Below, piece after piece: positions 113-26,306 of a stretch of 27,123 nt of DNA. This DNA is from a virus. The stretch covers positions 1 to 27,123 of IMG/VR virus record IMGVR_UViG_3300044615_000736; one strand, written 5' to 3'. The notes beneath the pieces are model-generated. The model saw only the letters and a list, made by a program, of their open reading frames with translations. It had not been told where the DNA came from and ran no database searches. Both the position numbers and the translations under genes were made by a program. Each line of letters opens with the position of its first letter. Within the stretch, counting starts at the first letter, position 1.

Positions 113-129
113 GTTGCGATTGTCGCAAC
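113..129. promoter_or_regulatory. Predicted repressor operator O1, upstream of the left operon
   Basis: Perfect inverted repeat GTTGCGA-TTG-TCGCAAC, extending to a 19-bp palindrome with the flanking C and G. The same 17-bp pattern recurs at 4223, 4885 and 8285. It lies 76 bp before the first convincing gene start at 205. The block continues with CAACGTG and a second half site GTTGCGG (132-138), an arrangement shared with the site at 4885. A matching -10 is not clear here (GGTGTT at 137-142 occupies the place of TATCTT at the other site). The role as repressor operator is inferred from recurrence and position. Confidence 0.65.
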
Positions 130-204
130 GTGTTGCGGTGTTCTGGTAAGGTTCGATCACCCCGGCGCGGTGCCGGGCAACGACGCAAACTGAGGAGACC
201 GAAC

Positions 205-384
205 ATGAACTTCATCGCACAAGCCGACCGCCAGTACGCCGAAGGCAAGGGCAGCGACCGTCGCGACCAGCAATGGATCTTGAGCGACCGCGACGTCTGG
301 TACCGCAACCCGTACTACAAAGGGCCGCCTCAGCCGCACCCGGAAGACGATCACGATTGGTACGACGACGAGGTGGCGGCATGA
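205..384 (+). CDS. Small acidic phage protein, function unknown
   Basis: Encodes 59 residues. ATG at 205 is preceded by a good Shine-Dalgarno (GAGGAGA about 8 nt upstream), so it is preferred to longer in-frame starts. The protein is rich in Asp, Tyr and Trp, with an acidic C-terminal tail (DDHDWYDDE). No signal peptide or membrane segment is visible and I do not recognise a family. It is the first convincing gene after the palindromic operator at 113-129 and overlaps the next gene by ATGA, so it probably heads an early, repressor-controlled operon of small host-interaction or accessory proteins. Confidence 0.72.
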   Translation: MNFIAQADRQYAEGKGSDRRDQQWILSDRDVWYRNPYYKGPPQPHPEDDHDWYDDEVAA

Positions 385-542
385 GCCCCGCCCTCGAGCT
401 GCTGACCCGCGTTCGCGACGGCCTGCGCCGGCTGGACCCGGTCTGGTGCGAGCTGCACAGCCGAGAGCAGATCACCGACGAGGAGCTCGACTACCTCATC
501 GGCGATGTCGAAGAGTTCGTGGCCGAGTCGCGCCCCGAGTAA
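381..542 (+). CDS. Small helical phage protein, function unknown
   Basis: Encodes 53 residues. The ATG overlaps the previous stop codon (ATGA), which suggests translational coupling. The sequence is predicted helical and acidic in the second half (residues about 29-53 hold the run EQITDEELDYLIGDVEEF). There are no cysteine or membrane motifs and no family is recognised. Codon use (strong GC at third positions) and the tight overlap support a real gene. Confidence 0.65.
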   Translation: MSPALELLTRVRDGLRRLDPVWCELHSREQITDEELDYLIGDVEEFVAESRPE

Positions 543-561
543 TGCGATCCCCTTACCGCGT

Positions 562-747
562 ATGGACAACCCCCACACCCCTTCCCCCGCCCGCCTCGCT
601 GCTCTGCGCGAGGCGGTGGAGCGTGCCGACATGCTGGCGAGCGTGCAGGCGCGACTGATCGACAACCAGGCGCGCGTGATCGAGCTGCTCGAGACGCGCG
701 TGAAAACGCTCGAGTCGATGGTGGCCGAGCTGAAAGCCAACTACTGA
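562..747 (+). CDS. Small coiled-coil protein, function unknown
   Basis: Encodes 61 residues from ATG 562. An in-frame upstream ATG at 505 would overlap the preceding gene; neither start has a clear Shine-Dalgarno, so the start is uncertain. From residue 10 onward it is one long amphipathic helix with heptad-like Leu/Val spacing (LRE..ERADML..VQARLI.NQARVIELLETRVKTLE), typical of a short coiled coil that oligomerises. It sits in a run of similar small helical proteins in the left operon. No family recognised. Confidence 0.55.
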   Translation: MDNPHTPSPARLAALREAVERADMLASVQARLIDNQARVIELLETRVKTLESMVAELKANY

Positions 748-756
748 GGTGCTGCC

Positions 757-1002
757 GTGTACCAGGCATTCCAGATCGTGATGACCTTTCTTGCCGCGGC
801 GTCGACTGCGGCGCTCTTCGCGTGGATGTGGTGGGACGTGCTCTGGCGCCAGCGTCACCGGCCGACCGCGCGGTACGAGCCTGACCGTGCGCAGCTGCGC
901 CGGCTCCAGGCGAAGAGGCGCCTGGCGCTGCGCCGCCTGGGCGATCGCTGGGTGCTGCACCCGTCGCGCCCGCGGGTGAACTGGGGCACGCGTCATGGAT
1001 GA
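757..1002 (+). CDS. Small single-pass membrane protein, function unknown
   Basis: Encodes 81 residues from GTG 757, with GAGGT 7-12 nt upstream. Residues about 5-27 are a hydrophobic segment (FQIVMTFLAAASTAALFAWM) followed by WWDVLW and a strongly basic tail rich in Arg. By the positive-inside rule the tail is probably cytoplasmic. The length and topology fit a small early phage inner-membrane protein, for example one acting in exclusion or host takeover, but that role is a guess. Its stop overlaps the start of the next gene by 8 nt. Confidence 0.6.
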   Translation: MYQAFQIVMTFLAAASTAALFAWMWWDVLWRQRHRPTARYEPDRAQLRRLQAKRRLALRRLGDRWVLHPSRPRVNWGTRHG

Positions 1003-1171
1003 GTTCATCCAGATCCGCGGCGTCAACGGCGCCGTGACTTCCGAGACCAGCGTGGACGAGTTTGCGAACGCCAAGGAGGCGGTCGAGGCCTACGCGCAGT
1101 TCCTGCTCGCGATGGGCTACGCCCTTGAGAACGTGCGCGACGCGCTCGAGCAGGTGGCCGGTGAGCTCTGA
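995..1171 (+). CDS. Small helical phage protein, function unknown
   Basis: Encodes 58 residues starting MDEFIQIRGVNGAVTSE and ending LEQVAGEL. The gene overlaps both neighbours (8 nt with the previous, 11 nt with the next), and the open frame fills exactly the gap between them, which is why I accept a gene this short. The first 20 residues look like a short beta hairpin; the rest is one or two amphipathic helices. No family recognised. Easily missed by a length cut-off. Confidence 0.6.
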   Translation: MDEFIQIRGVNGAVTSETSVDEFANAKEAVEAYAQFLLAMGYALENVRDALEQVAGEL

Positions 1172-1328
1172 GCTTGAGCTGGCGCGCGAAGAGAACATCC
1201 GCCTGCGCCGGCAGCAGGGCGCGCTGATGGTGCGCCTGTCGGAGGCGATCGCCGAGGCGATGCTGCTGCGCGCAGAGATCGAGCGATTGAGAGACGAGAT
1301 CGAAAGGCTCAAGGCCGTGCGGCACTGA
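1161..1328 (+). CDS. Small coiled-coil protein, function unknown
   Basis: Encodes 55 residues from GTG 1161, overlapping the preceding gene by 11 nt; AGGTGG lies just upstream. Almost the whole chain is a predicted coiled coil with heptads of Leu and Ile and alternating Glu/Arg (LRAEIERLRDEIERLK near the C-terminus). It resembles the protein encoded at 1407-1604 in style (both contain LRAEI followed by Arg/Glu-rich heptads), so the two may be diverged duplicates or partners. No known family. Confidence 0.55.
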   Translation: MSSELELAREENIRLRRQQGALMVRLSEAIAEAMLLRAEIERLRDEIERLKAVRH

Positions 1329-1406
1329 TCTCCCGTGCCCCGGCCTGCTCACGCACCGAGCACAACTAGCCCGAGAGCTGCCCCGGTGGTGCGAGGCAGC
1401 AACCTT

Positions 1407-1604
1407 ATGACCATCGACACGACAAGTCCCCCCGGCTCGTGGCAGCGCGAGCTGGACTTCAAGTTGACCCGGCCTGACCAGCTGCGCGCTGAGATCTACG
1501 AGCAGCGGCGGCGCATTGCTGAGTACCTGCGCGAAATCGAGCACCTGCGTGCGCGCGTGCGCGAGCTCGAGGCGCGTGAGTCTGCCTGGGTGAGGGAGCC
1601 ATGA
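1407..1604 (+). CDS. Small coiled-coil protein, function unknown
   Basis: Encodes 65 residues from ATG 1407. A longer form from GTG 1335 is possible, but its extra 24 residues are Pro/Ser/Ala-rich and look non-coding. Residues about 20-60 form a charged coiled coil (LRAEIYEQRRRIAEYLREIE and following heptads), like the protein at 1161-1328. The stop codon overlaps the start of the next gene by ATGA. Function unknown. Confidence 0.55.
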   Translation: MTIDTTSPPGSWQRELDFKLTRPDQLRAEIYEQRRRIAEYLREIEHLRARVRELEARESAWVREP

Positions 1605-1933
1605 CCGACCTACGCAAAGCCGCCGAGGGCGCACTCGCCGTGATGACGGCAAAGCCGAGCAGCATCACTTCAGCCGACTGGGCGGACGCGATCGACGCAC
1701 TGCGCGCTGCCCTTGCGCGGCAAACGCTCGACGTGGCGCATCAGTTGCTGCAGGACGAAGCCGTGACCGACGGTCAACTGACAGCAATGGTGCTGGCAGC
1801 GTTCAAGGTGCCGCCGACTCAAGGTTGGCACTACCCCCTCGCCCCGAACCAACTACGCCGCTTCGCCGACCTCGTTGCCGCAGCCGAGCGGGAGGCGATT
1901 CTCACAGCGTCGCTTCGTCACCCGACGCCGTGA
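1601..1933 (+). CDS. Hypothetical phage protein, 110 residues
   Basis: ATG 1601 has a good Shine-Dalgarno (GAGGGAG) and overlaps the preceding stop by 4 nt. The protein is soluble and helical. A central Gly-Trp-His-Tyr-Pro stretch near residues 75-80 and AERE near the end are the only distinctive features. It is the last gene of the left operon; its 3' end overlaps the 3' end of the oppositely transcribed replication gene by 32 bp, and I see no intrinsic terminator between them. No family assigned. Confidence 0.65.
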   Translation: MTDLRKAAEGALAVMTAKPSSITSADWADAIDALRAALARQTLDVAHQLLQDEAVTDGQLTAMVLAAFKVPPTQGWHYPLAPNQLRRFADLVAAAEREAILTASLRHPTP

Positions 1934-3923
1934 GTGCCAGCGACTTGTAGGTCTTTCGATTCGCCTTGTAGTCGACCTCAGTCAGCAGCCCATCGCGCTG
2001 CATGTCGAACAGCAGGCTGAAGAACTCCGCGCGCTGCATCCCCTTCGGGAACGCCGCGCTCCCAGACAGCACCCGGTACGCGTTGTTGTTCGCGGTCGAG
2101 CTCATCGACAGCCGCTGCCCTGAGCGCAGCGAATACGCCAGCAGTTTTAGAATCGCTACGCGCTGCGAATGTCGCAACATGCCGGGCGAAAGAGAGCCCG
2201 GCACCGTGCCCTGACGCCGGAACACTTTCGCCGCCTGGTCGAACTCGAGGCGGATCTCTTCCTGCAGCGGCCCGAGGTTGCACTTCTCGTGGCGCAGCGT
2301 GACGAGCCGGTCGCTGTCACGCGTCATTGCCCACCGCGACCGGGCCGAGTTGTTCCAGGCGGTCGAGCCCGAGAACGTGCTGTTCGTGTCCTGCCCTGCG
2401 CCCATACGCACCGAGGCCTTGTCGACGTGCGCAAGGAGCAGCACCGCTGCGGCCGAGTGCTGCGCGATCGAGTTGAGCGCGCGCATGAACCCGCGCACCT
2501 CGGCGCGGTCGTTCTCGTTCGAGCTGAACACGTCCGACGCGTTGTCGATGATGACGACCTGCGCCTGGTGCTGGTCAACGACGTCGGAGAGCCACTGCAT
2601 CCGCGCGGTGGGCGCCCCGTCGCGCCAGAGCACGCAGTCGGTCTGCGTGAGGTCGTAGGCGACGAGCTTGTCCTCGAGGTCGGCGAGACTGACGCCGAGA
2701 TCCGCGCAGATGTTGCCCAGGCGGAAGTGCACCGTGCGTGTCTCGTCCTCGGCCGAGAGCAGCAGTACCTTGCCGGGCAGCGTGTCGAGGCCGAGGAACG
2801 GGCGGCCCAGCGCGACCGCCGCCGCGAGCTGCAGCGACAGGTTCGACTTGCCGACGCCGCCGTTCGCGCTGAGCAACGTCGTCGTGCGCGCTGGCATCCA
2901 CCCCGCCAGGGCGAACGTGGCCGGTTCTGGGGCGGTCTGTGCCAGCTGGGTCCAGTCGATCGGGGCGGGCTCGAGCGCCGCCGTGGCGCGCTCTGGCTTC
3001 GGCCCGAGGTTGATCGTGACGGGCGCCAGCGGCTCTGGGCGGAAGCGCTCAGCCCCCTGCACCATCCGCGGGATCTCGTTGTACCGCGCCTGCCAGCGCT
3101 CGAGCTCGGCGCCCGAGCTCGGACGGGCAGCTTCCATGAGACCGCGCAGGTGATTGACGACTGCGCCGCCCGACGCGCCCGAGGCGACGAGCTTCGCCGA
3201 GAGCTTGATCAGCGGGTCGTGGTAACTTTCGCCGCTCAGGATGCTGTGAATGAGCGACGCATTCTCCGCATCGCTCGGCGTGTCGGTCGCGCGTGGCGCC
3301 GGGGCTGACACCCTCGAGCGCACCGCGTCCAGGTCGAGCCCGAAGACGCCGAGGGCGTCCTCGAGCGTGTATCGATTGCCGGGGTGCCAAGCCTTGAGCT
3401 GCACCGGCGTGTTGCGCCCGCTCTTGCCGTTCGTGCCGGCCGGCAGCCGGCAGTACCGCACCGCGTTGTTGCCTGAGCTGTCGGCGCGGATCAGACGCGC
3501 GTCCGCCATCGCCTGCATCACCGCGTCGATCAGCGCAACATCACGCGTCGCCGGGTCGTCCGCATCGAGCAGCACGCCGATCTGGTGATTCGATGGCGAG
3601 GTCTCGATGACGAACGAGGGCGTGCCGTTGAGCTCACCGGGATCGGCGTCGTCCGCGACAAGCGCTGCGAGCGAATCGAACGCGCTCTTGCTCCGGCGTG
3701 GCCGTCCATCACCGAGCGCGAGGCGCGCCACCGAGTAATAAGTGTTGTCCTCGACGCGCCGGTCGATCATCAGTTGTTGGTTCGGCGTGCCGAGGTAGGC
3801 CTGCCCCGCCCAGGCGTCTGGCGTGACCGCGTTCGGATCGCCACGAAACGCTGCGATCCAGCCGTGCTGGCCGGCGCCGAGCGGGCCGTAAACGGCCGAC
3901 AGAAATTCGGAGTTACTCACCAT
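1902..3923 (-). CDS. Replication protein: RepB-like primase domain plus RepA-like helicase (AAA_25)
   Basis: Encodes 673 residues from ATG 3923; a longer in-frame form to 4016 would run into the regulator gene and is rejected. Residues about 50-200 resemble the RepB-type primase fold: a strand-rich core with FVIETSPSNHQ (104-114) and RLPAGTNGKSG (159-169), the usual primase-side signatures. Residues about 335-570 are a RecA-like motor: Walker A NGGVGKSN (354-361), a hydrophobic strand ending in Asp (VVIID, 456-460) as Walker B, and LLLAHVDK (495-502) as a third motif. The C-terminal 80 residues may form a winged helix. The fusion would prime and unwind phage DNA, so it is probably the main replication initiator/helicase. 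It lies directly behind the Cro-like gene, as expected for lytic-phase expression. Confidence 0.85.
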   Translation of the reverse strand: MVSNSEFLSAVYGPLGAGQHGWIAAFRGDPNAVTPDAWAGQAYLGTPNQQLMIDRRVEDNTYYSVARLALGDGRPRRSKSAFDSLAALVADDADPGELNGTPSFVIETSPSNHQIGVLLDADDPATRDVALIDAVMQAMADARLIRADSSGNNAVRYCRLPAGTNGKSGRNTPVQLKAWHPGNRYTLEDALGVFGLDLDAVRSRVSAPAPRATDTPSDAENASLIHSILSGESYHDPLIKLSAKLVASGASGGAVVNHLRGLMEAARPSSGAELERWQARYNEIPRMVQGAERFRPEPLAPVTINLGPKPERATAALEPAPIDWTQLAQTAPEPATFALAGWMPARTTTLLSANGGVGKSNLSLQLAAAVALGRPFLGLDTLPGKVLLLSAEDETRTVHFRLGNICADLGVSLADLEDKLVAYDLTQTDCVLWRDGAPTARMQWLSDVVDQHQAQVVIIDNASDVFSSNENDRAEVRGFMRALNSIAQHSAAAVLLLAHVDKASVRMGAGQDTNSTFSGSTAWNNSARSRWAMTRDSDRLVTLRHEKCNLGPLQEEIRLEFDQAAKVFRRQGTVPGSLSPGMLRHSQRVAILKLLAYSLRSGQRLSMSSTANNNAYRVLSGSAAFPKGMQRAEFFSLLFDMQRDGLLTEVDYKANRKTYKSLALTASGDEATL
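2162..2178. promoter_or_regulatory. Operator-like 17-bp site inside the replication gene
   Basis: GCTGCGA-ATG-TCGCAAC, one mismatch from a perfect inverted repeat of the same kind as O1 at 113-129. It falls inside the 3' part of the replication gene, so it may be chance or a roadblock/secondary operator. Only sequence similarity supports it. Confidence 0.3.
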
Positions 3924-3940
3924 CCCCGCCCCCGCGCCGG

Positions 3941-4168
3941 TTACTTGATGATCACGAAGTCGCGCAGCTGGAGCTTGATGCGTTCCTTTTTGCAGTGCGC
4001 CAAGATGGTCGCCCAATGCCGCTGCGGAACATGCCCGCCCGTGCCGCGCTTCGATGCCGGCATCATCCAGCGACAGACTGCACTCGGATTCAGTTGCACG
4101 ATGCGCGCAGTCGCGCGGACTCCGCCCAGTTTTTGAACGACTTCGCGCGCCGGGGATAGCTGGCTCAT
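3941..4168 (-). CDS. Cro-like DNA-binding regulator
   Basis: Encodes 75 residues. The pattern Leu-Gly-Gly (14-16), an Ala-rich helix (TARIVQLNPSAVCRW, residues 20-34) and an Ile/Val-Pro turn (HVPQRHWATIL, 47-56) matches the short helix-turn-helix proteins often annotated as Cro-like, YdaS-like or carph-isopro-domain regulators of phages. It is divergent from the CI-like gene at 4268 and lies 17 nt upstream of the replication gene, the standard position of cro. It would repress the repressor gene and dampen early transcription. The Shine-Dalgarno is weak (CAGAGCAG). Confidence 0.75.
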   Translation of the reverse strand: MSQLSPAREVVQKLGGVRATARIVQLNPSAVCRWMMPASKRGTGGHVPQRHWATILAHCKKERIKLQLRDFVIIK

Positions 4169-4192
4169 TTTCTGCTCTGGTGTTCTGTTAAG

Positions 4193-4222
4193 TTGCAGGG
4201 ACGCGGCCGAAGGTGCTTTAAT
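4193..4222 (+). promoter_or_regulatory. Predicted promoter of the CI-like repressor gene
   Basis: TTGCAG (4193-4198), 18-bp spacer, TTTAAT (4217-4222). The operator at 4223-4239 starts directly after the -10, so bound repressor would cover the start site and give autoregulation. Only the sequence match supports it. Confidence 0.45.
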
Positions 4223-4239
4223 GTTGCGGGATTGTCAAC
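4223..4239. promoter_or_regulatory. Predicted operator O2 in the cro/cI control region
   Basis: GTTGCGG-GAT-TGTCAAC, the same 17-bp layout as O1, O3 and O4 but with a diverged right half. The right half read on the - strand gives GTTGACA, which contains a perfect -35 hexamer (TTGACA), although no well-spaced -10 follows it on that strand. A lone half site TTGCAAC lies at 4252-4258. Its position between divergent regulator genes is where a phage operator is expected. Confidence 0.6.
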
Positions 4240-4267
4240 ACCCCGCCAACATTGCAACGAGGCAAAC

Positions 4268-4864
4268 ATGAAACAGCAACGTGTTAACACTGCGTGGTTC
4301 AAAGATCGCCTGGCGGAGCGCGATCTTTCGATGCGGCGGCTCGCCAAGCTGCTCGAGCTTGACCCGAGCGCTGTCTCGCTGATGCTGCGAGGCAAGCGAG
4401 TAATGACCGCCGACGAGGCCAACCGGATCAGCGGCCTGCTCACGATCCCTGTGACCGAGGTGCTTGCGCAGGCGGGCATTCAGATCGACGACGACGCACG
4501 GCATCTGCCGATCAAAGCATATGTCGACGCGCGCGGCGTGCTGACGCCGCTGACATCAAAGAATCCTAGGCGAATTGCAGCCCCGCGTGACGTGCCCGCG
4601 AACGGACTCGCGATCCAGATCCGCGCGCCCGAGCTGCAGATGGACGGATGGGTGATTTTCGCAGGAGCGTTCGATTTACGCGTCACGGCACTGATCGATC
4701 GGCTTTGCGTGATCGAGATCCAGAGCGACGGCCATATGGTCGGCACGTTGAAGCGCGGCTACGACGACGAGCGATTCAACCTGGTGCCGTTCACCGGCGC
4801 GGCGGTGTCAGCCAACGTTGCGGTCAAGGCTGCCGCCCCGGTGCTGTGGATTCGGCCGGTCTGA
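4268..4864 (+). CDS. CI-like phage repressor (XRE helix-turn-helix, S24-like C-terminal half)
   Basis: Encodes 198 residues from ATG 4268. Residues about 10-64 are an XRE/HTH_3 DNA-binding domain (MRRLAKLLELDPSAVSLMLR at 22-41 spans the helix-turn-helix). Residues about 100-198 have the outline of the LexA/CI S24 fold: a beta-rich stretch with DGWVIFAG (126-133) and a Lys-Arg element (GTLKRGY, 159-165). The catalytic Ser expected just before the DGW stretch is not visible (the aligned place reads RAPELQM), so self-cleavage is doubtful. It is divergent from the Cro-like gene and is the likely keeper of lysogeny, acting at the 17-bp operators described here. Confidence 0.82.
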   Translation: MKQQRVNTAWFKDRLAERDLSMRRLAKLLELDPSAVSLMLRGKRVMTADEANRISGLLTIPVTEVLAQAGIQIDDDARHLPIKAYVDARGVLTPLTSKNPRRIAAPRDVPANGLAIQIRAPELQMDGWVIFAGAFDLRVTALIDRLCVIEIQSDGHMVGTLKRGYDDERFNLVPFTGAAVSANVAVKAAAPVLWIRPV

Positions 4865-4884
4865 TCCGGCCCTTTGCCATAACT

Positions 4885-4901
4885 GTTGCGATCTTCTCAA
4901 C
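4885..4901. promoter_or_regulatory. Predicted operator O3 over the recombination operon promoter
   Basis: GTTGCGA-TCT-TCTCAAC, matching O1 and O4 in the whole left half. It covers the -35 and most of the spacer of the promoter at 4886-4914, so repressor binding would block RNA polymerase. It lies between the CI-like gene and the first recombination gene. Confidence 0.65.
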
Positions 4902-4914
4902 GTGCTGCTATCTT
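4886..4914 (+). promoter_or_regulatory. Predicted promoter of the recombination/integration operon
   Basis: TTGCGA (4886-4891), exactly 17-bp spacer, TATCTT (4909-4914). The first gene starts at 4946 with its Shine-Dalgarno at about 4932-4936, leaving a leader of roughly 25 nt. The -35 is part of operator O3. Confidence 0.6.
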
Positions 4915-4945
4915 CCAACGCGCCCCCACCACGGAGCTCAAACCA

Positions 4946-5329
4946 ATGAACCTCGAAACACTCGCCGCGGATTGGCTTGCCGCGAAGCGTGCAGAAAACG
5001 AAGCCAACACCCGCCGGCTGCAGATCGAGCAGGACATGCTCAAGCTGGCGCCCGCCCTCGAAGAGGGCTCGCAGTCGACCATCCTGACGAACGGCTGGAA
5101 GTTCAAGACGACCGGCAAGCTCAGCTACAAGGCCGACGTCGACAAGCTGCTGGCCCTCACGGCCGCGTGGCCTGAGAAGCCGGTGAAGACGAAGGTCGAG
5201 GCGGACGAGTCGCTGCTCAAGGCGATCCGCACCGATCGGCCGGATCTTTGGCGCCAGATCGCGCCCGCGATCACGGTGAAGCCCGCGAAGACGTACATCG
5301 TCGTCGAGGAGGTGTCCAGTGGCGTTTGA
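4946..5329 (+). CDS. DUF7173-like phage protein of the recombination cassette
   Basis: Encodes 127 residues; ATG 4946 follows ACGGAG. The first 45 residues are a charged helix (coiled-coil-like, LAAKRAENEANTRRLQIEQD), followed by an EEGS-type turn and a beta segment (TILTNGWKFKTTGKLSYKAD). The C-terminal part contains KTKVEADESLLKAI and ends in AITVKPAKTYIVVEE. This layout matches, from memory, a phage family that regularly precedes AAA_24 ATPases and DUF669 proteins (DUF7173); the exact family name should be checked. Its 3' end overlaps the next gene by 11 nt. The role is unknown; context suggests a helper of phage recombination. Confidence 0.7.
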   Translation: MNLETLAADWLAAKRAENEANTRRLQIEQDMLKLAPALEEGSQSTILTNGWKFKTTGKLSYKADVDKLLALTAAWPEKPVKTKVEADESLLKAIRTDRPDLWRQIAPAITVKPAKTYIVVEEVSSGV

Positions 5330-6053
5330 CTTAAAGTCGATCAAGAAGAACACCGCCCTGTCGGCGCCGCGCGTCCTGGTCTATGGCGTCGAGGGTATCG
5401 GCAAGTCGACGTTCGCCGCCGGCGCGCCCGCGCCGATCTTCATCCAGACCGAGGACGGTCTCGGGTCTCTCGAGGTCGACCACTTCCCGGTCGCGCAGAA
5501 ATCCGCCGACGTGCTGGATGCGATCGCGGCATTACATGAACCCGGTCACAGTTTTCAAACCGTCGTGATCGATTCGCTCGATTGGCTTGAAACCCTGATC
5601 TGGCGTGACATCGAAGCAAAGTACGACGCAAAGGATTTGGCGTACGGAAAAGGATCGATGATAGCCGCCGAAGAGTGGCGCAAGGTGCTGGACGGGCTCA
5701 ACTCGCTGCGCAACAACCAGGGCATGGCCGTGGTGCTGATCGCGCACTGCGAGATCAAGCGCTTCGACTCGCCAGAGACCGAGCCCTACGATCGGTACCA
5801 GCCGAAGCTGCAGGCCCGCTCGAGCGCACTGGTGCGCGAGTGGTGCGATGCGGTGCTGTTCGCCAATTACCGCACGCTCATTAAGAAGGCCGAGGTGGGC
5901 TTCAACAAGGAAGTCAGCCGCGGCATCAGCACCGGCGAGCGCCTGCTCTACACGAGCGAGCGGCCGGCCTACATGGCGAAAAACCGTTATGCACTCCCCG
6001 AGAGCATCCCGCTCGCGTGGGAGGCGTTCGTCAACGCAATCACGTCAAACTGA
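5319..6053 (+). CDS. Sak4-like RecA-fold ATPase (AAA_24), phage recombination protein
   Basis: Encodes 244 residues; GTG 5319 follows a strong GAGGAGG and overlaps the previous gene by 11 nt. Walker A is GVEGIGKST (residues 23-31, Lys29), Walker B is VVIDS (82-86), and an IAHCEIKRF strand (141-149) occupies the sensor position. The size and motifs fit the short RecA/RadA-like core of phage nucleotide-binding proteins such as Sak4, which promote single-strand annealing together with an SSB-type partner. The DUF669 gene that follows is the usual partner. Expected role: ATP-driven handling of single-stranded DNA during phage replication and recombination. Confidence 0.85.
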   Translation: MAFDLKSIKKNTALSAPRVLVYGVEGIGKSTFAAGAPAPIFIQTEDGLGSLEVDHFPVAQKSADVLDAIAALHEPGHSFQTVVIDSLDWLETLIWRDIEAKYDAKDLAYGKGSMIAAEEWRKVLDGLNSLRNNQGMAVVLIAHCEIKRFDSPETEPYDRYQPKLQARSSALVREWCDAVLFANYRTLIKKAEVGFNKEVSRGISTGERLLYTSERPAYMAKNRYALPESIPLAWEAFVNAITSN

Positions 6054-6063
6054 GGAACCGACA

Positions 6064-6552
6064 GTGCCTTCATTTCAATTCGACGCCCAGAACCACGTTG
6101 CGCCGCCGGCGCCGGAGCGCAGCCCGTTGCCGCGCGGCTTCTACCAGGTCATGGTGATCGGGTCCGATCTCAAGAGCACGCAGGCCGGCACCGGCCAGTA
6201 CGTCGAGCTCGTGCTGCAGGTGGTCGACGGCGACCACAGCGGCCGGCGCGTCTGGGATCGGCTCAACGTCAGCAACCCGAACAAGACCGCCGAGGATATC
6301 GCCAAGCGCCAGCTGCAGCAGCTGTGCCTGGCGGCCGGCGTCACGAACCTGACCGACACTGAACAGCTGCACGACATCCCCGTGATGGCGGAAATCGACA
6401 TCGACCGGAAAGACCCGACGCGCAATCGCGTGATGGGCTACGCCGGCATCGCCGGTGCGTCTGGGAAACCTTCTGCCCAGGCCGCGCGGCCCGGTGCCGC
6501 CGCATCTCCCCCTGCGGCGAAGCCGGCTGCGCGGCCCTGGGAGCGCCGATAA
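6064..6552 (+). CDS. DUF669 protein, probable OB-fold single-stranded DNA-binding partner
   Basis: Encodes 162 residues from GTG 6064 (TGAGGA upstream). Residues about 18-125 carry the DUF669 pattern: RGFYQVMV, a Lys/Thr/Gly turn, YVELVLQVVDGDHSGRRVWD and LNVSNPNKTAEDIAKRQLQQ, then a Cys-containing helix and a short beta end. The last 35 residues are a low-complexity Ala/Pro tail ending PWERR, comparable in place, though not in acidity, to SSB tails. DUF669 proteins are found next to Sak4/AAA_24 ATPases and are thought to act as ssDNA-binding proteins. The stop overlaps the next start (TAATG). Confidence 0.82.
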   Translation: MPSFQFDAQNHVAPPAPERSPLPRGFYQVMVIGSDLKSTQAGTGQYVELVLQVVDGDHSGRRVWDRLNVSNPNKTAEDIAKRQLQQLCLAAGVTNLTDTEQLHDIPVMAEIDIDRKDPTRNRVMGYAGIAGASGKPSAQAARPGAAASPPAAKPAARPWERR

Positions 6553-7661
6553 TGGCGCAAGTCCCTGCTTCGCAGCACACAACCGGGGAGGCCATTGTCA
6601 AATGGCGTGCGCGAGAGAAGCAGGAACACCGGGAACACCTCGGGGCGTCGTTGATCGGCCACGCGTGCGATCGGCACATCTGGCTGTCTTTCCGCTGGGC
6701 GATGACGCCCAGCTGGGACGGCCGGATGCTGCGGCTCTTCGACCGCGGCAAGCGCGAGGAGGCGGTCGTCGCCGAGGAGCTGCGAGGCATCGGCGTCGAT
6801 CTGCACACGCACGACGGCGACAAGCAGATCGAGTGCCGTGACGAGTCGGGGCATTTCGGCGGCAGCGTCGACGGTATCGGCCGTGGCTTCCCCGAGGCGC
6901 CCAAGACCTGGGCGATCCTCGAGGTGAAGACGCACAGCGCGAAGAGCTTTACAGACCTCAAGAAGGTCGGCGTCGCCGAGAGCAAGCCGCAGCACTACGC
7001 GCAGATGCAGTCCTACATGGGGCTGCTGAAGCTCGAGCGCGCGATGTACCTCGCGGTGAACAAAGACAACGACGAGCTCTACACCGAGTGGGTGCACTTC
7101 GACGAGGACGCGTTCAAGGCGATGCAGGAGCGTGCCCGGCGCATCATTGACTCGAAGACCCCACCGGCGAAGCTCTCCGAAGATCCGGCGCACTGGCAGT
7201 GCAAGGGGTGCCCGTTCTTCTCAGTCTGTCACGAGCAGAAGGTGGCCGAGGTGAGCTGCCGCACCTGTTGCCACGCGACCCCCGTTGCGGCCGGCGCATG
7301 GCATTGCGACGTTCACGGCACCGTGCGCAACAAGGGTGAGCAGCGCAGCGCCTGTGAGCAGCACCTGTTCATCCCCGACCTCGTGCCCTTCGGCGAGGCG
7401 GTGGATGGCGGGGTCGCGCACATCGAGTACCGGCACCGGGAGACCGGCAAGACGTTCATCAACGGCGTTAGCGGCTACTCGAGCAAGGAGCTCTCCGCGT
7501 CGGCGGCCGGCACCGTGACCGAGCCGATCGTCGAGGCGATGCGGGCGACGTTCAACGCCAAGGTCGTCGCGAGCAAGCCGCGGCGCGGCAAGCGCGACCT
7601 GTCGAACCTGCCGCCGGCCGAGGCCTACGACCACGACTTCAACGACCCGATCCCGTTTTGA
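6552..7661 (+). CDS. PD-(D/E)XK nuclease, Cas4/RecB-like with Fe-S cluster cysteines
   Basis: Encodes 369 residues. The nuclease core shows Gly-Ser-Val-Asp (Asp107), Glu-Val-Lys (Glu124, Lys126) and a downstream Gln151/Tyr155 pair (QMQSY), the order expected for RecB-family nucleases. Cys39 before the core and Cys217, Cys220, Cys226 after it reproduce the Cas4/AddB layout that binds a 4Fe-4S cluster. A further Cys/His-rich patch follows (Cys236, 239, 240, 252, 268 with His254 and His271), not part of the usual fold. The last 90 residues are poorly conserved in type. Located behind Sak4 and DUF669, it probably processes DNA ends for recombination or replication. Confidence in the nuclease call is high; the substrate is unknown. 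Confidence 0.85.
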   Translation: MAQVPASQHTTGEAIVKWRAREKQEHREHLGASLIGHACDRHIWLSFRWAMTPSWDGRMLRLFDRGKREEAVVAEELRGIGVDLHTHDGDKQIECRDESGHFGGSVDGIGRGFPEAPKTWAILEVKTHSAKSFTDLKKVGVAESKPQHYAQMQSYMGLLKLERAMYLAVNKDNDELYTEWVHFDEDAFKAMQERARRIIDSKTPPAKLSEDPAHWQCKGCPFFSVCHEQKVAEVSCRTCCHATPVAAGAWHCDVHGTVRNKGEQRSACEQHLFIPDLVPFGEAVDGGVAHIEYRHRETGKTFINGVSGYSSKELSASAAGTVTEPIVEAMRATFNAKVVASKPRRGKRDLSNLPPAEAYDHDFNDPIPF

Positions 7662-7670
7662 GGTGATTGC

Positions 7671-7910
7671 ATGATCGTCAAGGAATATGACGTCGTCGAG
7701 CGGCCACAGCACTACGACCGCGGCGCCATCGAGTGCATCGATGCGATCAAGGCGCAGCTGACGCCAGACGAGTGGCGCGGGTACCTGCGCGGGCAGATTG
7801 CCAAGTACAACTGGCGCCTGGGCATGAAAGACGACCCGAAGGTCGACGCGGGCAAGCTGCTCTGGTACGCCTCGCTGCTTGCGGGGAGAGATCCGCGTGA
7901 GAATCGATAA
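7671..7910 (+). CDS. DUF3310 protein
   Basis: Encodes 79 residues from ATG 7671 with GAGGTGATTGC before it. It has the DUF3310 signatures in order: RPQHYDRGAIECIDAI (11-26), a GYLRGQIAKYNWRLGMK helix (37-53) and a final Lys-Leu-Leu-Trp-Tyr helix (LLWYASLLAG). This small family is very common in tailed phages next to replication or nucleotide-metabolism genes; it is often labelled a putative nucleotide kinase, without proof. Complete and of normal length. Confidence 0.85.
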   Translation: MIVKEYDVVERPQHYDRGAIECIDAIKAQLTPDEWRGYLRGQIAKYNWRLGMKDDPKVDAGKLLWYASLLAGRDPRENR

Positions 7911-7954
7911 ACCCGGCCAGGCGCATCCCTGGCGCAGCAAGTGGAGCACAGAGC

Positions 7955-8281
7955 ATGGGCGGACGGATGTCACGAAACAAGGGAGCGGCGGCGGAGCGGG
8001 AGCTGGCGCAGATCCTGAGCGACGAGCTTGGGTTCGGCGTGAAAAGGAAGCTGGGGCAGGCCCGCGATTCGGGCGACGACATCCAAGTCGGTAAGTTCCG
8101 TATCGAGGCGAAGCGCCGCGAGACGCTCGCCCTGCCCGCCTGGTGCCGGCAGATCGAGGAGCACTGCCAGCCGGGAGAGGTGCCCATCGTGGCCTACCGG
8201 CAGAACGGCCAGCCCTGGCGGGTCGTGCTCAAGCTCGGGGACTTCCTGCCGCTCCTGCGAGGCGAGTTGACGGATGCCTGA
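7955..8281 (+). CDS. Small PDDEXK endonuclease, Holliday junction resolvase-like
   Basis: Encodes 108 residues; ATG 7955 follows GGAGCACAGAGC, and an alternative in-frame ATG at 7967 starts MSRNKGAAAE. The family pattern is clear: SRNKGAAAERELAQIL (6-21), an Asp pair (41-42) and Glu51-Ala-Lys53 in FRIEAKRRE, followed by PIVAYRQNGQPWRVVL, the conserved beta unit of small phage PDDEXK nucleases. These act as junction-resolving or structure-specific nucleases. In this operon it would resolve recombination or replication intermediates. Its end overlaps the excisionase start by 8 nt. Confidence 0.8.
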   Translation: MGGRMSRNKGAAAERELAQILSDELGFGVKRKLGQARDSGDDIQVGKFRIEAKRRETLALPAWCRQIEEHCQPGEVPIVAYRQNGQPWRVVLKLGDFLPLLRGELTDA

Positions 8282-8594
8282 AGTGTTGCGAGAATCTCAA
8301 CAGCCAGTGCTGACAACACTGGTTGACGCGGCGGGGCAGCTCGGTGTTAGCGTGAAGACGCTCCGCCGGCTGGTCGACCGGGGCGAGGTGCCGGCCTACA
8401 GGTTCGGCACCGCGATCCGAGTCAACGTCGCGGAGATTCTCGAAGCAACCAAACAGGAGCCCCGCAAACCATGTCCATCTTCAAACGAGGCAAGACGTTC
8501 TACATCGACATCGCTCTCGCCGGCGGGCGGCGATTCAAGCAGTCTGCTCAGACTGCTGATCGCAAAGCAGCGCAGGAGCTGCACGACCAATTGA
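8274..8594 (+). CDS. xis: Excisionase-like MerR/HTH_17 protein
   Basis: Encodes up to 106 residues. Residues about 14-60 form an HTH_17/MerR-like winged helix (LVDAAGQLGVSVKTLRRLVD then GEVPAYRFGTAIRV), the usual fold of excisionases that bend attP and steer the integrase toward excision. The gene directly precedes and overlaps the integrase by 124 bp. The overlapped C-terminal 40 residues are Ser/Arg-rich and look like an out-of-frame reading of the integrase, so the functional part is probably the first 65 residues. The predicted operator O4 (8285-8301) lies inside codons 4-10, which is unusual. Confidence 0.75.
   Translation: MPEVLRESQQPVLTTLVDAAGQLGVSVKTLRRLVDRGEVPAYRFGTAIRVNVAEILEATKQEPRKPCPSSNEARRSTSTSLSPAGGDSSSLLRLLIAKQRRSCTTN
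8285..8301. promoter_or_regulatory. Predicted operator O4 at the start of the excisionase gene
   Basis: GTTGCGA-GAA-TCTCAAC, identical in both half sites to O3 and differing only in the 3-bp centre. It lies 11 bp after the excisionase start codon. No matching -10 is present at the right distance, so it may act as a transcription roadblock instead of a promoter operator. Confidence 0.55.
8304..8322. repeat. Inverted repeat beside operator O4
   Basis: CCAGTG (8304-8309), 7-nt centre, CACTGG (8317-8322), immediately after O4. It could be a second protein-binding site, for example for the excisionase itself, or an mRNA hairpin in the xis coding region. Confidence 0.35.
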
Positions 8595-9469
8595 AGGCGC
8601 AGCTCTGGCGCCAGGCCAAGCTCGGCGAGAAGCAACCGCGCTCGCTCAACGAGGCGGCCGAGCGCTGGCTTGCCGAGCACAAGACCGACGGCGCCATCCG
8701 CGACTACACCCACCACCTCGCCTTCTGGTGCGCGCGTGCCGAGGGCATGGCCCTCACCGACATCACCCGCGCCTGGGCGGCCGAGCAGATCGAGGGGCTC
8801 ATCACGCGCAAGGGCACGCCGGCGAGCAACGGCACCCGCAACAACTACGTCATCACCCTGCGCAGCGTGCTCTCGACCGCGTGCAAGGAGTGGGAGTGGA
8901 TCGACCAGGTGCCGACCTTCCGCACCTACGGCGACAAGCGCGAGGCGAGCAAGATGCTGATCGCGACCCCCGCCCAGGCGAAGGCGCTGCTCGAGGTGCT
9001 GCCGCCCCAGCTGCGCGCGGCGGTCGGGTTTGCCTTCATGACCGGCCTGCGCAAGTCGAACGTGTTCGGGTTGACCTGGGATCGCGTGGATCTCGCCCGC
9101 GGCGTCTGCTGGGTGCAGCCGATCGACACGAAGGCCGGGAATCTCATCGTCTGCCCGATCAACAGCGCCGCCCGAGCGCTCCTCGAGCAGCAGCCGCGGG
9201 TGGCGGGCGAGAGCCGGGTGTTCCCGGTTGAGCCGCCCTGCTTCCACCAGTGGCGCCGGTACACGAAGCGCGCCGGGTTACCCGAGGGGTTCCGGTTTCA
9301 CGACATCAGGCACACCTTCGCGAGCTGGGCGGCGATGGACGGGGTCGATCGCAAGACGCTGCAGGACATGGGCGGCTGGAAGACGCCGGCGATGATCGAC
9401 AACTACGTCCACCTGCCGGTCGATCACCTGGTCAATGCGGCGGAGCGCCTGGCTACGCGCCTGCACTGA
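8471..9469 (+). CDS. int: Tyrosine recombinase, phage integrase
   Basis: Encodes 332 residues; ATG 8471 follows ACAGGAG. The N-terminal 60 residues are a DNA-binding arm (FYIDIALAGGRRFKQSAQT), then a core-binding helical domain (about 60-150), then the catalytic domain. Active-site residues are in the expected order: Arg194 (TGLRKSNVFGL), Lys221, His277-x-x-Arg280 (FHDIRHTFASW), Trp303 in GGWK (the His/Trp position) and the nucleophile Tyr312 (NYVHL). It catalyses integration and excision at attP, which lies just downstream (9548-9592). Length is normal for the family and nothing is truncated. Confidence 0.95.
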   Translation: MSIFKRGKTFYIDIALAGGRRFKQSAQTADRKAAQELHDQLKAQLWRQAKLGEKQPRSLNEAAERWLAEHKTDGAIRDYTHHLAFWCARAEGMALTDITRAWAAEQIEGLITRKGTPASNGTRNNYVITLRSVLSTACKEWEWIDQVPTFRTYGDKREASKMLIATPAQAKALLEVLPPQLRAAVGFAFMTGLRKSNVFGLTWDRVDLARGVCWVQPIDTKAGNLIVCPINSAARALLEQQPRVAGESRVFPVEPPCFHQWRRYTKRAGLPEGFRFHDIRHTFASWAAMDGVDRKTLQDMGGWKTPAMIDNYVHLPVDHLVNAAERLATRLH

Positions 9470-19965: not shown

Positions 19966-20372
19966 TGCAACGTCTCCTTCAGGAACCGGCAGTCTTCGCG
20001 CCGCAGCTCAAGCAGCACACAGTCGACGGTCTCCGCAATCTTCTTGAAGCCAATCTTCTCGTTGAACCGAATCGCTCGATCAAGGTCGCGCGGCGTCAGT
20101 CCGTAGATGGCGCGCACGCCGACGGTGTCGAACGGGTACGACATCACCGCGCGCAGGAACTGCTTGCTCAGCGAGTGCGCAGAGTCGAGCACGACGTGAA
20201 TGAAGCACGCCGCAGGCGTCCAGCCGTTGAACGCCACCGCGGCGGCAATGGTGCCGTCGTCGCGCAACGCCCCGATCGTCCGCAAGTCGCTCGACCACGG
20301 GATCTGCGTCTGCTTCGACATCCACTCCCAGATCACCGGCGGCTCGCCTGCAATGTCAGTCACGAGGCGCAT
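19962..20372 (-). CDS. GNAT-like acetyltransferase-fold phage protein
   Basis: Encodes 136 residues; ATG 20372 overlaps the upstream stop (TGATG) with GGAGGAG before it. The chain follows the GNAT order: beta strands with TIGALRDDGTIAAAVAFNG, a strand with FIHVVLD, a helix, then RAIYGLTPRDLDRAIRFNEK (108-127) and IGFKK, the usual C-terminal helix and strand. The acetyl-CoA pyrophosphate loop (R/QxxGxG/A) is not obvious, so activity is uncertain. Similar GNAT-like proteins are often found inside structural operons of podoviruses, role unknown. Confidence 0.7.
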   Translation of the reverse strand: MRLVTDIAGEPPVIWEWMSKQTQIPWSSDLRTIGALRDDGTIAAAVAFNGWTPAACFIHVVLDSAHSLSKQFLRAVMSYPFDTVGVRAIYGLTPRDLDRAIRFNEKIGFKKIAETVDCVLLELRREDCRFLKETLQ

Positions 20373-21556
20373 CAAAGCTCCTCCACGCTGACTGCAAACT
20401 CGGGGTTTTCCATCATCCTTTTCAGGTAGAGCCACATCAGCACATCGTCACCCGCCCCGCCCCCGCCACCCCCGCCGCCAGCATCACCACTGTCAGGCCC
20501 GCCCAGCGCGCTGATCAATTCAGACTCTGGCTCAACTGCCGGCGCTTCCAGCTCTTCGATAGTGATTTCGCCTCTCGATTCAGGCTCAGGATCTTCGAGC
20601 AACGGCGGCAACGGGTCAGGCTCGCGCGGCTTGTTGATGACGAACGTCTGAGGGTTCCATTCCGGTGCCAGCAGTTCTTCAACCGTGAGCTGGGTGTCAA
20701 GCTCCGGCTCAAGGTCTTGCTGCAACGGCGGCAACGGGTCGGGTTCCCGCGGCTTGTTAACGGTAAAGGTTTGAGGATTCCATTCGGGCGCAAGGAGCTC
20801 TTCAACCGTGATTTGAGTGTCAGGGTCAGGCTCCGGCTCGGGCGCGGGCAGCGGCGGTAGCGGATCAGGCTCCCGCGGTTTGTTGACGACAAACGTCTGA
20901 GGGTTCCATTCCGGCGCAAGGAGCTCTTCCACCGTGATCTGCGTGTCAGGCTCGGACGCGGGTAGCGGCGGTAGCGGGTCGGGCTCCCGCGGCTTGTTGA
21001 TGACAAACGTCTGCGGATTCCATTCCGGCGGCAGCAGCTCTTCAACCGTGATTTGGGTGTCAGGCTCGGACGCAGGCGGCGGCGGCGCGACGTCGGGTTC
21101 CTTGATGAGCTTCTTGGACTCCGGCAACGGCACGAACTCGTCGTTGATCAGCTCCTCGATCGAGATGCTGACATCAGGCTCCGGCAGAGCCACCTCGGTC
21201 GGCTCATACGGTGCAAACTCGACCGGCAGCGGCTTGATTTCGGCAGGCGAGAACCACTGCGGGGCCGGCTCGTCAACGGTCGGAACTTGCGGCGGCTGCC
21301 AAGGCGGCTGCCAAGGTGGCAGTGACGGCGGGGCAGCCTCAGGCGGCGTGACCGACGGCGGCGTGATCGGCGGGGGCGCGACCGGCGGCGGAGACGGAGG
21401 CGAAGACGGAGGCGGCGAAGTCGGAGTCGACACGGCCGAAGCCGCCCTGCGCATCCACGGGAAGCTCAGCGCTTGCGGAGCTCCTGGCATCGTCACGCCG
21501 CCTGTCGTGTTGCCACGCAGCGCCGCGATCAACGGATTGCCAACCGTTTCTGCCAT
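20372..21556 (-). CDS. Proline-rich tandem-repeat virion-region protein
   Basis: Encodes 394 residues from ATG 21556 (overlapping the upstream stop; a GTG at 21559 is alternative). Residues 40-95 are almost pure Pro/Ser. Residues 163-328 contain four copies of a 38-42 residue unit: DTQITVEELLAPEWNPQTF then a Val/Ile-Asn-Lys-Pro-Arg-Glu-Pro-Asp-Pro-Leu-Pro-Pro-Leu link. Shorter SIEEL and TIEEL versions flank them, and the chain ends in a Gly run (359-367), a helix and a final VSVEEL. The protein is mostly extended and acidic. It sits between the nozzle-like and GNAT-like genes. I recognise no family; a spacer, length-measuring or partner-binding role is only a guess. Confidence 0.7.
   Translation of the reverse strand: MAETVGNPLIAALRGNTTGGVTMPGAPQALSFPWMRRAASAVSTPTSPPPSSPPSPPPVAPPPITPPSVTPPEAAPPSLPPWQPPWQPPQVPTVDEPAPQWFSPAEIKPLPVEFAPYEPTEVALPEPDVSISIEELINDEFVPLPESKKLIKEPDVAPPPPASEPDTQITVEELLPPEWNPQTFVINKPREPDPLPPLPASEPDTQITVEELLAPEWNPQTFVVNKPREPDPLPPLPAPEPEPDPDTQITVEELLAPEWNPQTFTVNKPREPDPLPPLQQDLEPELDTQLTVEELLAPEWNPQTFVINKPREPDPLPPLLEDPEPESRGEITIEELEAPAVEPESELISALGGPDSGDAGGGGGGGGAGDDVLMWLYLKRMMENPEFAVSVEEL
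20573..21070 (-). repeat. Tandem repeats of 114, 126 and 123 bp spacing in the proline-rich gene
   Basis: The Trp of the PEWNP motif falls at residues 179, 217, 259 and 300, and the matching TTCCAT on the + strand at 21018, 20904, 20778 and 20655. Units are similar at DNA level with many silent changes; the linker length (acidic Pro/Glu part) varies, which accounts for the unequal period. Confidence 0.85.
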
Positions 21557-23145
21557 CACATCACCCCGCCCATTTCACTCAAAACGTGGAACGACGCGAA
21601 CGTCGTTGTGCCGCCCAGGCCACGGACGCGCATCCGCAGCGATCCGTAGTAGCCGAGGCCGCTCACGCCGAGCCACGTCTCGTAGGTGTTGCTCGAGTAG
21701 CCCCACCGAGCCGTGTTCCATGTGTCGTTGTCCCATTCGTCACGCGCTTCAGCAGTAAACGACGGCGCGCCGGCGACTCCGCCGAAGCTGTACTGCGTGT
21801 TGAGCCGCACCTTCAGCGACGGCGGCTGGCGCGCGATGAACACCGGCCGAACCATCGTGAATCGCTTGAGCTGCCCCGGCGCGCCGAACGCGTTGAAACA
21901 GGTCTGCACCTCGCCATCGACAGCGAAGCCGCCGCTGCCATCGACCGCGACGCCATCCAGCTCGCCAAGGAACCCCTTGGCAACGCGGCGGTCATCCGTC
22001 GCGAAGTACAGCTGGCCGTTCAGCATTGCCGTCGCGACCATCGGGATGCCCGTCAACGTGCACCAGGCGCCCGTGTTGATGTTCATCGCGAACTGCTGAT
22101 AGGTGCCGTCGAGCAGCGGCAGCTTGATGACGAGCACGTCAGAGTTGGGGACGAGGTAAACGTCCCAGGCAACTGCGCTGCGCAGCTCGCTCACGATCGG
22201 CGCCAGCACCGTCTGGATCTTCTGGGCGGGGCCGGGCTGGATCTCGCTGAACTGCCCGTTGACGAGTCGAGACATCGGCACGATGCCGAGCTCGGACAGG
22301 ATCATCACGTCGCCGCCGAAGTTAGTGAAGAACCGGCCGTTGAGCGGCACCGGACCGACGTACCAGACGCCGCGCAGCGCGAACGTCGAGGCGTTCGAGG
22401 GGTCGGTGCCCTGCCAGACGCTGACGTCGCCCTGACTGCCGACCGCGACCAGGTAGTCGTCGATGCCGGTGCCAGCGTCCAGCGTCCAGTTGATCACGGC
22501 GCGCATCGAGCCACCGTTGCGCATCGTCGCTCCCATCGGGAACTCGGCCGCGGTGCCGGTGATTGCGTTGATCGTCGTGAGGTAGAACACGCTCGAGCTG
22601 TTCGCCACCGTGAAGAACACGCGGTTCTTCCAGACCGCCACCGATGTCGGATTAGCGGGCAGGCCGGTCACCGTCTGCTGTGTCCAGCTCGTGCCGTTGT
22701 ACGTCCAGTAACCCGCGCCGGGGCTCACGGCCAGCAGGAAGTTGCCTGCAGTCGTCGAGAACTGCGCGGTGCTCCACAAATTCGCGGTGCTTCCCGTCGT
22801 CGACTGCGACACCGCCGGCGTGGCGGTCGTCACGTCGTAAATGTCGCCGGCCGCGGCGGCAAAGACCTTGCTGCTTGCGGGGTTCGGCGCGTTGTAGCTG
22901 AAAACTGAGCCGATATCGTTCGCGAGTGCGGTGCTGGTGTGGTACTGCCAGCCCTTGCGCAGTTCGGCGCCGGTTTGTTTCGGGATGAAGTTGCGCATCA
23001 CCAGCGCATCCGTCACAGCCATGTTGCTGATCGGGTCGCGATAGTTGAGCCCGCCCACCGGCGCGGGGGAGACGATCAGCTGCGCGCTTTGCGCGGCTGC
23101 GGACAGTCGCGGCGACTTGAACTGCTTGATCGGGATCAGCGGCAT
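21556..23145 (-). CDS. Beta-rich tail/neck protein, nozzle or gp10-like
   Basis: Encodes 529 residues; ATG 23145 overlaps the upstream stop (TGATG), Shine-Dalgarno weak. The whole chain is beta-rich with repeated blade-like segments (for example NGTSWTQQTVTGLP, VAVWKNRVFFTVAN, VGSQGDVSVWQGTD, GGDVMILSELGIVPM), as in the propeller-like stabilisation or nozzle proteins of podovirus tails (P22 gp10 and related). It follows the adaptor gene, in the order expected for neck/tail assembly. It should close the portal after packaging and form the tail tube; exact homology needs a structure search. Confidence 0.72.
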   Translation of the reverse strand: MPLIPIKQFKSPRLSAAAQSAQLIVSPAPVGGLNYRDPISNMAVTDALVMRNFIPKQTGAELRKGWQYHTSTALANDIGSVFSYNAPNPASSKVFAAAAGDIYDVTTATPAVSQSTTGSTANLWSTAQFSTTAGNFLLAVSPGAGYWTYNGTSWTQQTVTGLPANPTSVAVWKNRVFFTVANSSSVFYLTTINAITGTAAEFPMGATMRNGGSMRAVINWTLDAGTGIDDYLVAVGSQGDVSVWQGTDPSNASTFALRGVWYVGPVPLNGRFFTNFGGDVMILSELGIVPMSRLVNGQFSEIQPGPAQKIQTVLAPIVSELRSAVAWDVYLVPNSDVLVIKLPLLDGTYQQFAMNINTGAWCTLTGIPMVATAMLNGQLYFATDDRRVAKGFLGELDGVAVDGSGGFAVDGEVQTCFNAFGAPGQLKRFTMVRPVFIARQPPSLKVRLNTQYSFGGVAGAPSFTAEARDEWDNDTWNTARWGYSSNTYETWLGVSGLGYYGSLRMRVRGLGGTTTFASFHVLSEMGGVM

Positions 23146-26286: not shown

Positions 26287-26306
26287 CGGGGGCAATGCTG
26301 CCCCCG
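26287..26306 (-). other. Hairpin at the 5' end of the predicted capsid transcript
   Basis: Perfect 8-bp stem CGGGGGCA / TGCCCCCG with a 4-nt loop, no T-tract on either strand. It begins about where transcription from the promoter at 26312-26340 should start, so it may stabilise the capsid mRNA 5' end. Confidence 0.55.

Follow-up and report, generated by a model that had tools for sequence, protein, structure and literature searches.

The viral contig IMGVR_UViG_3300044615_000736 from the IMG/VR collection, one linear sequence of 27,123 bases analysed here over its whole length (hereafter the window), carries five copies of a 17-bp dyad spread over 8.2 kb, one of them in the gap between a cro-like gene and a divergent repressor gene and the others elsewhere. 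Very probably, these sites are the operators of the 198-residue CI-like repressor encoded in the window, which would shut the early, replication, recombination and integration/excision genes together. The density of the sites, their fixed positions in distant relatives and the predicted fold of the repressor give good support to a regulon of the CI type with dispersed operators.

A preliminary description of this DNA had listed dyads starting at positions 113, 2162, 4223, 4885 and 8285, and all five sequences were found exactly there. Scanning the window with the pattern GTTGMGA-N3-TCKCAAC (M = A/C, K = G/T, so that position 5 of either half may be A or C) returned three perfect matches, four with at most one mismatch and six with up to two; 20 dinucleotide shuffles gave expectations of 0.0, 0.05 and 0.95 per window. 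Within one mismatch of the pattern, neither the window nor a near-identical sister contig of 37.5 kb (G001), which has the identical site set, holds any site besides those at 113, 2162, 4885 and 8285. Many equally good matches scattered in coding DNA had been named as evidence against a regulon, but no such scatter was seen: the closest match within the structural genes of the window carries two mismatches (15105). Matches at 251, 15105 and 19049, with two to three mismatches, were discarded as lying inside coding genes at background level. The initial view of an almost invariant left half and a free centre had to be abandoned: both halves are conserved, with the A or C of position 5 exchanged between halves from phage to phage, and the pooled logo has an A/T-rich centre, which at 8285 even contributes to a -10 hexamer. 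This exchange is illustrated by the xis site, which reads GTTGCGA-GAA-TCTCAAC in the window and GTTGAGA-GAA-TCGCAAC in a related locus (L009), where two synonymous changes swap the half-sites and leave the dyad intact, something a symmetric dimer site would tolerate.

Independent evidence comes from the conservation of these sites across relatives. An alignment of the repressor with four relatives served to recruit 80 loci from viral contigs by protein similarity alone, the motif being unused, and 76 of these were scanned. Two clades are distinguished here, clade A, with repressors 61-100% identical to that of the window, and clade B, with repressors 38-43% identical. These repressor-recruited loci (603 kb) contain 12 perfect operator sites, and 61 and 164 when up to one and up to two mismatches are allowed, while a reversed control pattern matched the same sequence 0, 0 and 8 times, respectively. 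Because many recruited loci are close copies, these counts are not independent and we relied on distinct contexts instead: the site following the repressor gene is kept in 21 distinct clade-A and 19 distinct clade-B contexts, and the motif positions of the relatives are fixed, in the cro-repressor gap, at the recombination promoter, at xis/int and in the helicase gene. In the converse test, scanning the DNA of the viral collection blindly for GTTGCGA-N3-TCTCAAC led to homologs of window genes in 16 of the 116 loci examined (4 of them from the same phage), compared to 2 of 120 loci for the reversed pattern, both weak (26-29% identical). The preliminary description had called for a position-weight-matrix scan, and a symmetric matrix built solely from 31 sites of clade-B and similarly distant phages ranked 8285 and 4885 (23.2 bits each) and 113 (21.9 bits) as the top three positions of the window, followed in fourth place by 2162 (14.0 bits). 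The site at 4223 came sixth (11.5 bits), level with coding noise at 26306, 15105 and 16758, and on this score it was rejected as a strong operator by sequence alone.

The repressor gene (4268..4864, plus strand) encodes a protein with a helix-turn-helix (HTH) domain followed by a LexA-type C-domain. Pfam HTH_3 was detected in 26/26 members of the family (best E 2e-10), the window protein itself scoring just below the curated cut-off (E 2.5e-4), and the recognition region (LDPSAVSLMLRGKR-like) is retained where the operator is GTTG(A/C)GA. In the AlphaFold2 model (predicted local distance difference test, pLDDT, 87.8; predicted template modelling score, pTM, 0.58), the domains are reliable and their relative placement is not. 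The N-domain aligns with those of P22 c2 and lambda CI, with a lambda/P22/HigA HTH-like arrangement, and the top Foldseek matches are the lambda and 186 CI proteins. The modelled C-domain resembles those of 186 CI (Z 9.2, root-mean-square deviation (rmsd) 2.8, 102 residues aligned), a lambda CI fragment (Z 9.2, rmsd 3.2, 115 aligned) and LexA (Z 8.9, rmsd 3.0, 104 aligned), so that the predicted structure identifies the protein as CI-like, with an HTH and a 186/lambda/LexA-type C-domain. Across the C-domains of 26 homologs, no Ser or Lys that could form a self-cleavage pair is fully or almost fully conserved; RecA-stimulated self-cleavage is therefore unlikely, and induction may need an antirepressor.

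Two of the three best sites are built into probable promoters. The site at 4885..4901 (GTTGCGATCTTCTCAAC) lies 20 bp past the stop codon of the repressor gene, and its positions 2-7 (TTGCGA or TTGAGA) coincide with the -35 hexamer of a predicted rightward promoter (4886..4914, plus strand; TTGCGA at 4886-4891, a 17-nt spacer and TATCTT at 4909-4914). At sites of this type, a spacer of 17 nt gives the best mean match to TATAAT (3.38/6 in clade A and 4.05/6 in clade B). This promoter would serve the recombination operon (4946..8281, plus strand), which encodes a DUF7173 protein, a Sak4-like annealing protein, a single-stranded DNA-binding protein, a PD-(D/E)XK nuclease and small genes. Just upstream of this operator, at the repressor stop codon, a GGCCGG-TCTGAT-CCGGCC element (4854-4871) followed by CTTTG is likely a terminator, and relatives retain a resembling GC stem and T-run.

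The site at 8285..8301 (GTTGCGAGAATCTCAAC) occupies codons 4-10 of xis (8274..8594, plus strand), a 106-residue protein with an excisionase-type HTH (TIGR01764 E 2e-9, above cut-off, and a PHROG excisionase match), whose gene overlaps that of a 332-residue tyrosine integrase (8471..9469, plus strand; Phage_integrase E 4e-23). Here, operator positions 6-11 form a -10 hexamer, GAGAAT in the window and GATAAT or GACAAT in clade B, with TTGAC(G/A/T) found 17-18 nt upstream in 12 clade-A and 7 clade-B contexts. The corresponding probable promoter (8267..8295, plus strand) combines TTGACG (8267-8272), a 17-nt spacer and GAGAAT (8290-8295) preceded by TG. It was the sole match of a consensus promoter scan over the first 10 kb; since one match was expected by chance, the evidence for it is its conservation across contexts, and the operator itself is kept in clade A. 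The expected transcript start (about 8302) lies inside xis, and the same operator-promoter unit stands directly before int, where no xis hit was obtained, at L200 and L213, the clade-B loci in which int was hit, and at L070. For these two reasons, we interpret 8285 as part of a probable integrase promoter within xis that would drive int and not full-length Xis; its position would correspond to that of lambda pI. Thus, the dyad, its position and its conservation bear out the operator previously described at the start of xis, but the gene it controls would be int. Right after this operator, in xis codons and at the expected int transcript start, an inverted repeat CCAGTG-N7-CACTGG (8304-8322) was also observed; its counterpart in the sister contig is the perfect palindrome CCAGTGTTGACAACACTGG, and L009 retains the arms around a 10-nt centre. 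It is possibly the site of another regulator or a 5' hairpin.

The case for an operator at 4223..4239 (GTTGCGGGATTGTCAAC), in the cro-repressor gap, depends on its relatives, because it is conserved in place there: clade A keeps the block G(T/A)TGNGGAATTGTCAACAC and clade B shows a better dyad, GTTGCGATTGACTCAAC. A dyad operator is thus present between the divergent repressor and Cro genes, weak in the window, conserved in clade A and strong in clade B, and the earlier assignment of this site stands on conservation, though not on its own letters. Elements of two promoters were read from the sequence here. A probable leftward promoter for cro and the helicase gene (4210..4238, minus strand) has its -35 (TTGACA, 4238-4233) within the right half of the operator, followed by a 17-nt spacer and a weak -10 (CACCTT, 4215-4210), with hexamers and spacing kept in clade A. 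The probable promoter of the repressor gene (4193..4222, plus strand; TTGCAG at 4193-4198, 18 nt, TTTAAT at 4217-4222) lies directly upstream of the operator, and the arrangement of TTGC.., 17/18 nt and an A/T-rich hexamer is likewise kept in clade A.

At the left end, the perfect dyad GTTGCGATTGTCGCAAC (113..129) precedes by 75 bp the first open reading frame (ORF, at 205) of a rightward left operon, with counterparts in contig G003 and in L168, L178 and L180. The G003 contig (IMGVR_UViG_3300044845_000398; 35,395 bases) shows this left-operator region at both ends (44 and 35292), so that this relative is probably a complete genome whose ends overlap, with a length of about 35.2 kb.

The remaining site (2162..2178, GCTGCGAATGTCGCAAC) lies inside the leftward replication primase/helicase gene (1902..4016, minus strand; Pfam AAA_25 E 1e-34, PHROG primase/helicase matches) and is kept in clade A. 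It had been described as a one-mismatch relative of the other sites, which is correct for its sequence, but it is more than a chance relative, as constraint was detected at the DNA level. Among 18 aligned clade-A helicases, Leu614 is TTG in 18/18 and Arg615 is CGA in 16/18, while over the conserved Leu/Arg positions of the gene, the operator site included, TTG makes up only about 7% and CGA about 9%; in a synonymous-constraint scan of the gene, the windows starting at codons 611-614 were the four highest. Spacing tests on both strands revealed no clear promoter at this site, and a 15-nt spacer signal was rejected as arising from conserved Ile-Leu-Lys codons. On this codon evidence, the helicase site appears to belong to the operator set. 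Both 2162 and 8285 lie in coding DNA with conserved residues and could have been retained for the protein sequence (LRxSxR in the helicase, VLRESQ in Xis) and not as operators. We regard this as very improbable: beyond the helicase codons, which match operator letters with codons otherwise rare there, synonymous choices in xis follow the operator as well (TTG for Leu in 15/15, GAA for Glu in 14/14), and in clade B and L070 the 8285-type site precedes int in noncoding DNA.

Taken as operators, the five sites suggest the following mechanism. A repressor dimer would bind G(T/A)TG(A/C)GA-N3-TC(G/T)CA(A/T)C through its two HTH domains, covering the -35 of the recombination-operon promoter at 4885, the extended -10 of the integrase promoter inside xis at 8285, and the -35 of the leftward cro/replication promoter at 4223, where it would also adjoin the -10 of its own promoter on the downstream side and so autoregulate. 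At 113 it would control the left operon, and 2162 would make the fifth operator, its simplest role being that of a roadblock or a loop anchor. The early, replication, recombination and integration/excision genes of a lysogen would all be off at the same time, and loss of the repressor would release them jointly. Binding by the 198-residue protein, repression, the identities and start sites of the promoters and the role of the helicase site are what we infer from these sequences. An extension of this scheme, in which the repressor oligomerises and joins the dispersed operators in a lysogenic complex of 8 kb that is looped or wrapped, with 2162 as loop anchor or roadblock 2.06 kb from the cro-repressor operator, is allowed by the 186-CI-like C-domain, but we consider it unlikely.

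Several observations weigh against a single repressor acting at all five sites. The dyad at 4223 is weak and lopsided; no promoter was recognisable at 113 by spacing tests on both strands; the right half of the helicase site is degenerate in the G003 group, and this site is not retained as an operator in clade B. Furthermore, homologs of the Cro-like protein (3941..4168, minus strand; 75 residues, divergent from the repressor gene; NCBIfam carph-isopro domain E 4e-7, below its cut-off), 32-44% identical, accompany the repressor in nearly all operator-bearing loci of both clades, and contig G010 has a Cro homolog and a site upstream of it with no repressor homolog detected. Cro could then be the main binder at some sites. 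A further reading makes Cro the main reader altogether, alone or sharing the sites with the repressor as in lambda, so that conservation would reflect lytic control by Cro. This reading seems quite unlikely: in the cultured Lessievirus, Pavtokvirus, Ittyvirus and Parlovirus relatives, the neighbourhood of the repressor showed no homolog of this Cro, yet related dyads occupy the same gaps; besides, sharing by Cro, which may occur, does not exclude the repressor. In G010 (locus L026; IMGVR_UViG_3300037071_000963), the perfect operator lies at 647-663, upstream of the Cro homolog, and a weaker one at 3419-3435, upstream of a replication-type gene at 3487. The dimeric HTH repressor remains the best candidate for the conserved dyads, and the original idea of one repressor silencing early, recombination and excision genes is partly supported, with the amendment that 8285 would drive int and not full-length Xis. 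The expected operator positions (ahead of the left operon, in the cro-cI gap, over the recombination-operon -35 and at the beginning of xis) are kept in many relatives, the last being reread as a probable int promoter.

Searching cultured phages by DNA revealed no relatives of the window, and a genome collection searched with the single repressor protein and also with an alignment yielded no repressor relatives, so neither a host nor a cultured prophage was found. By tblastn, repressor homologs were detected in Lessievirus, Pavtokvirus, Ittyvirus, Lastavirus and Parlovirus, and every one of them has a divergently oriented gene on its upstream side. The Bcep22-like phages (BcepIL02, DC1, JC1, CSP3) and Pavtok, PEp14, Itty13, Parlo and SopranoGao share with the window a homologous repressor (26-37% identity), a divergent regulator gene, a rightward operon after the repressor (nuclease/RecT in Lessievirus) and related dyads in the same gaps, but their operator letters differ and the Cro of the window had no detected homolog in them. 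An altered 17-bp dyad precedes the repressor in BcepIL02, DC1 and CSP3 (GGTGCGACTATCGAACC) and in Parlo (GTTTGCATAACGCAAAC), and follows it in DC1 (GGTTGCAAAATCTAACC) and Itty13 (GTTTGCAAAACGCAAAC). Since the recognition region of these repressors is different too, operator and HTH appear to diverge together. This co-variation also bears on a host-encoded regulator such as LexA as the binding protein. SOS control of phage promoters is common, but the motif is not a known proteobacterial LexA box (CTGT-N8-ACAG) and changes together with the recognition region of the phage repressor, which makes a host regulator scarcely credible.

The proposed regulon combines features of several known systems. 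In lambda, the 17-bp dyad operators form two clusters of three, one set lying between the divergent CI and Cro genes and further operators at some kb, and the int promoter pI lies inside xis. The window likewise has a 17-bp dyad separating divergently transcribed repressor and Cro genes, more operators several kb off, a CI-type fold and a predicted integrase promoter inside xis, but its operators are single and dispersed, the -10 of the predicted int promoter lies under a repressor operator whereas pI is activated by CII, and the repressor lacks a conserved Ser/Lys pair in its C-domain. In this last trait it resembles coliphage 186 CI, which belongs to the closest C-domain fold group, with only about 12-17% sequence identity and a different operator layout; 186 CI is not cleaved, and self-cleavage is not required of CI-type repressors as a kind. 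With phage P1 C1, the phiC31 CIRs and the mycobacteriophage L5 stoperators (PMC6550527, PMC9283540), one repressor acts at single sites over several operons. The window recalls the P1 C1/phiC31 type in that several operons beyond the immunity region have one operator each, but here the sites are few (five) and are symmetric dyads built into promoter hexamers. Mycobacteriophage stoperators are asymmetric, monomer-read sites, unlike the present dyads, whose half-site letters swap sides between phages instead of keeping one orientation. An open-access library gave no match for operators of these phages or for an operator-controlled integrase promoter, and the word 'operator' is absent from the JC1 paper; the operators of the Bcep22-like group are apparently undescribed. 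The suggestion that the site layout may be new is thus retained for these phages, but dispersed-operator repressors as such were already known.

Elsewhere in the window, a proline-rich ORF of 395 residues (20372-21559, minus strand) contains near-copies of a unit like TVEELLAPEWNPQTFVINKPREPDPLPPL, and no RNA families or tRNAs were found.

An int promoter whose -10 lies inside a repressor operator would couple integration and immunity in a compact way, and the helicase-gene site, being constrained, raises the question of looping or roadblocks. In one viral collection, 201 stretches encode a relative of this repressor, and our results provide an operator code that can be tested across this large group of temperate phages, which are uncultured. 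They also point to the corresponding sites in the cultured Bcep22-like group, of which some phages are studied as therapy candidates and as lysogens, and shared immunity could then be predicted from sequence.

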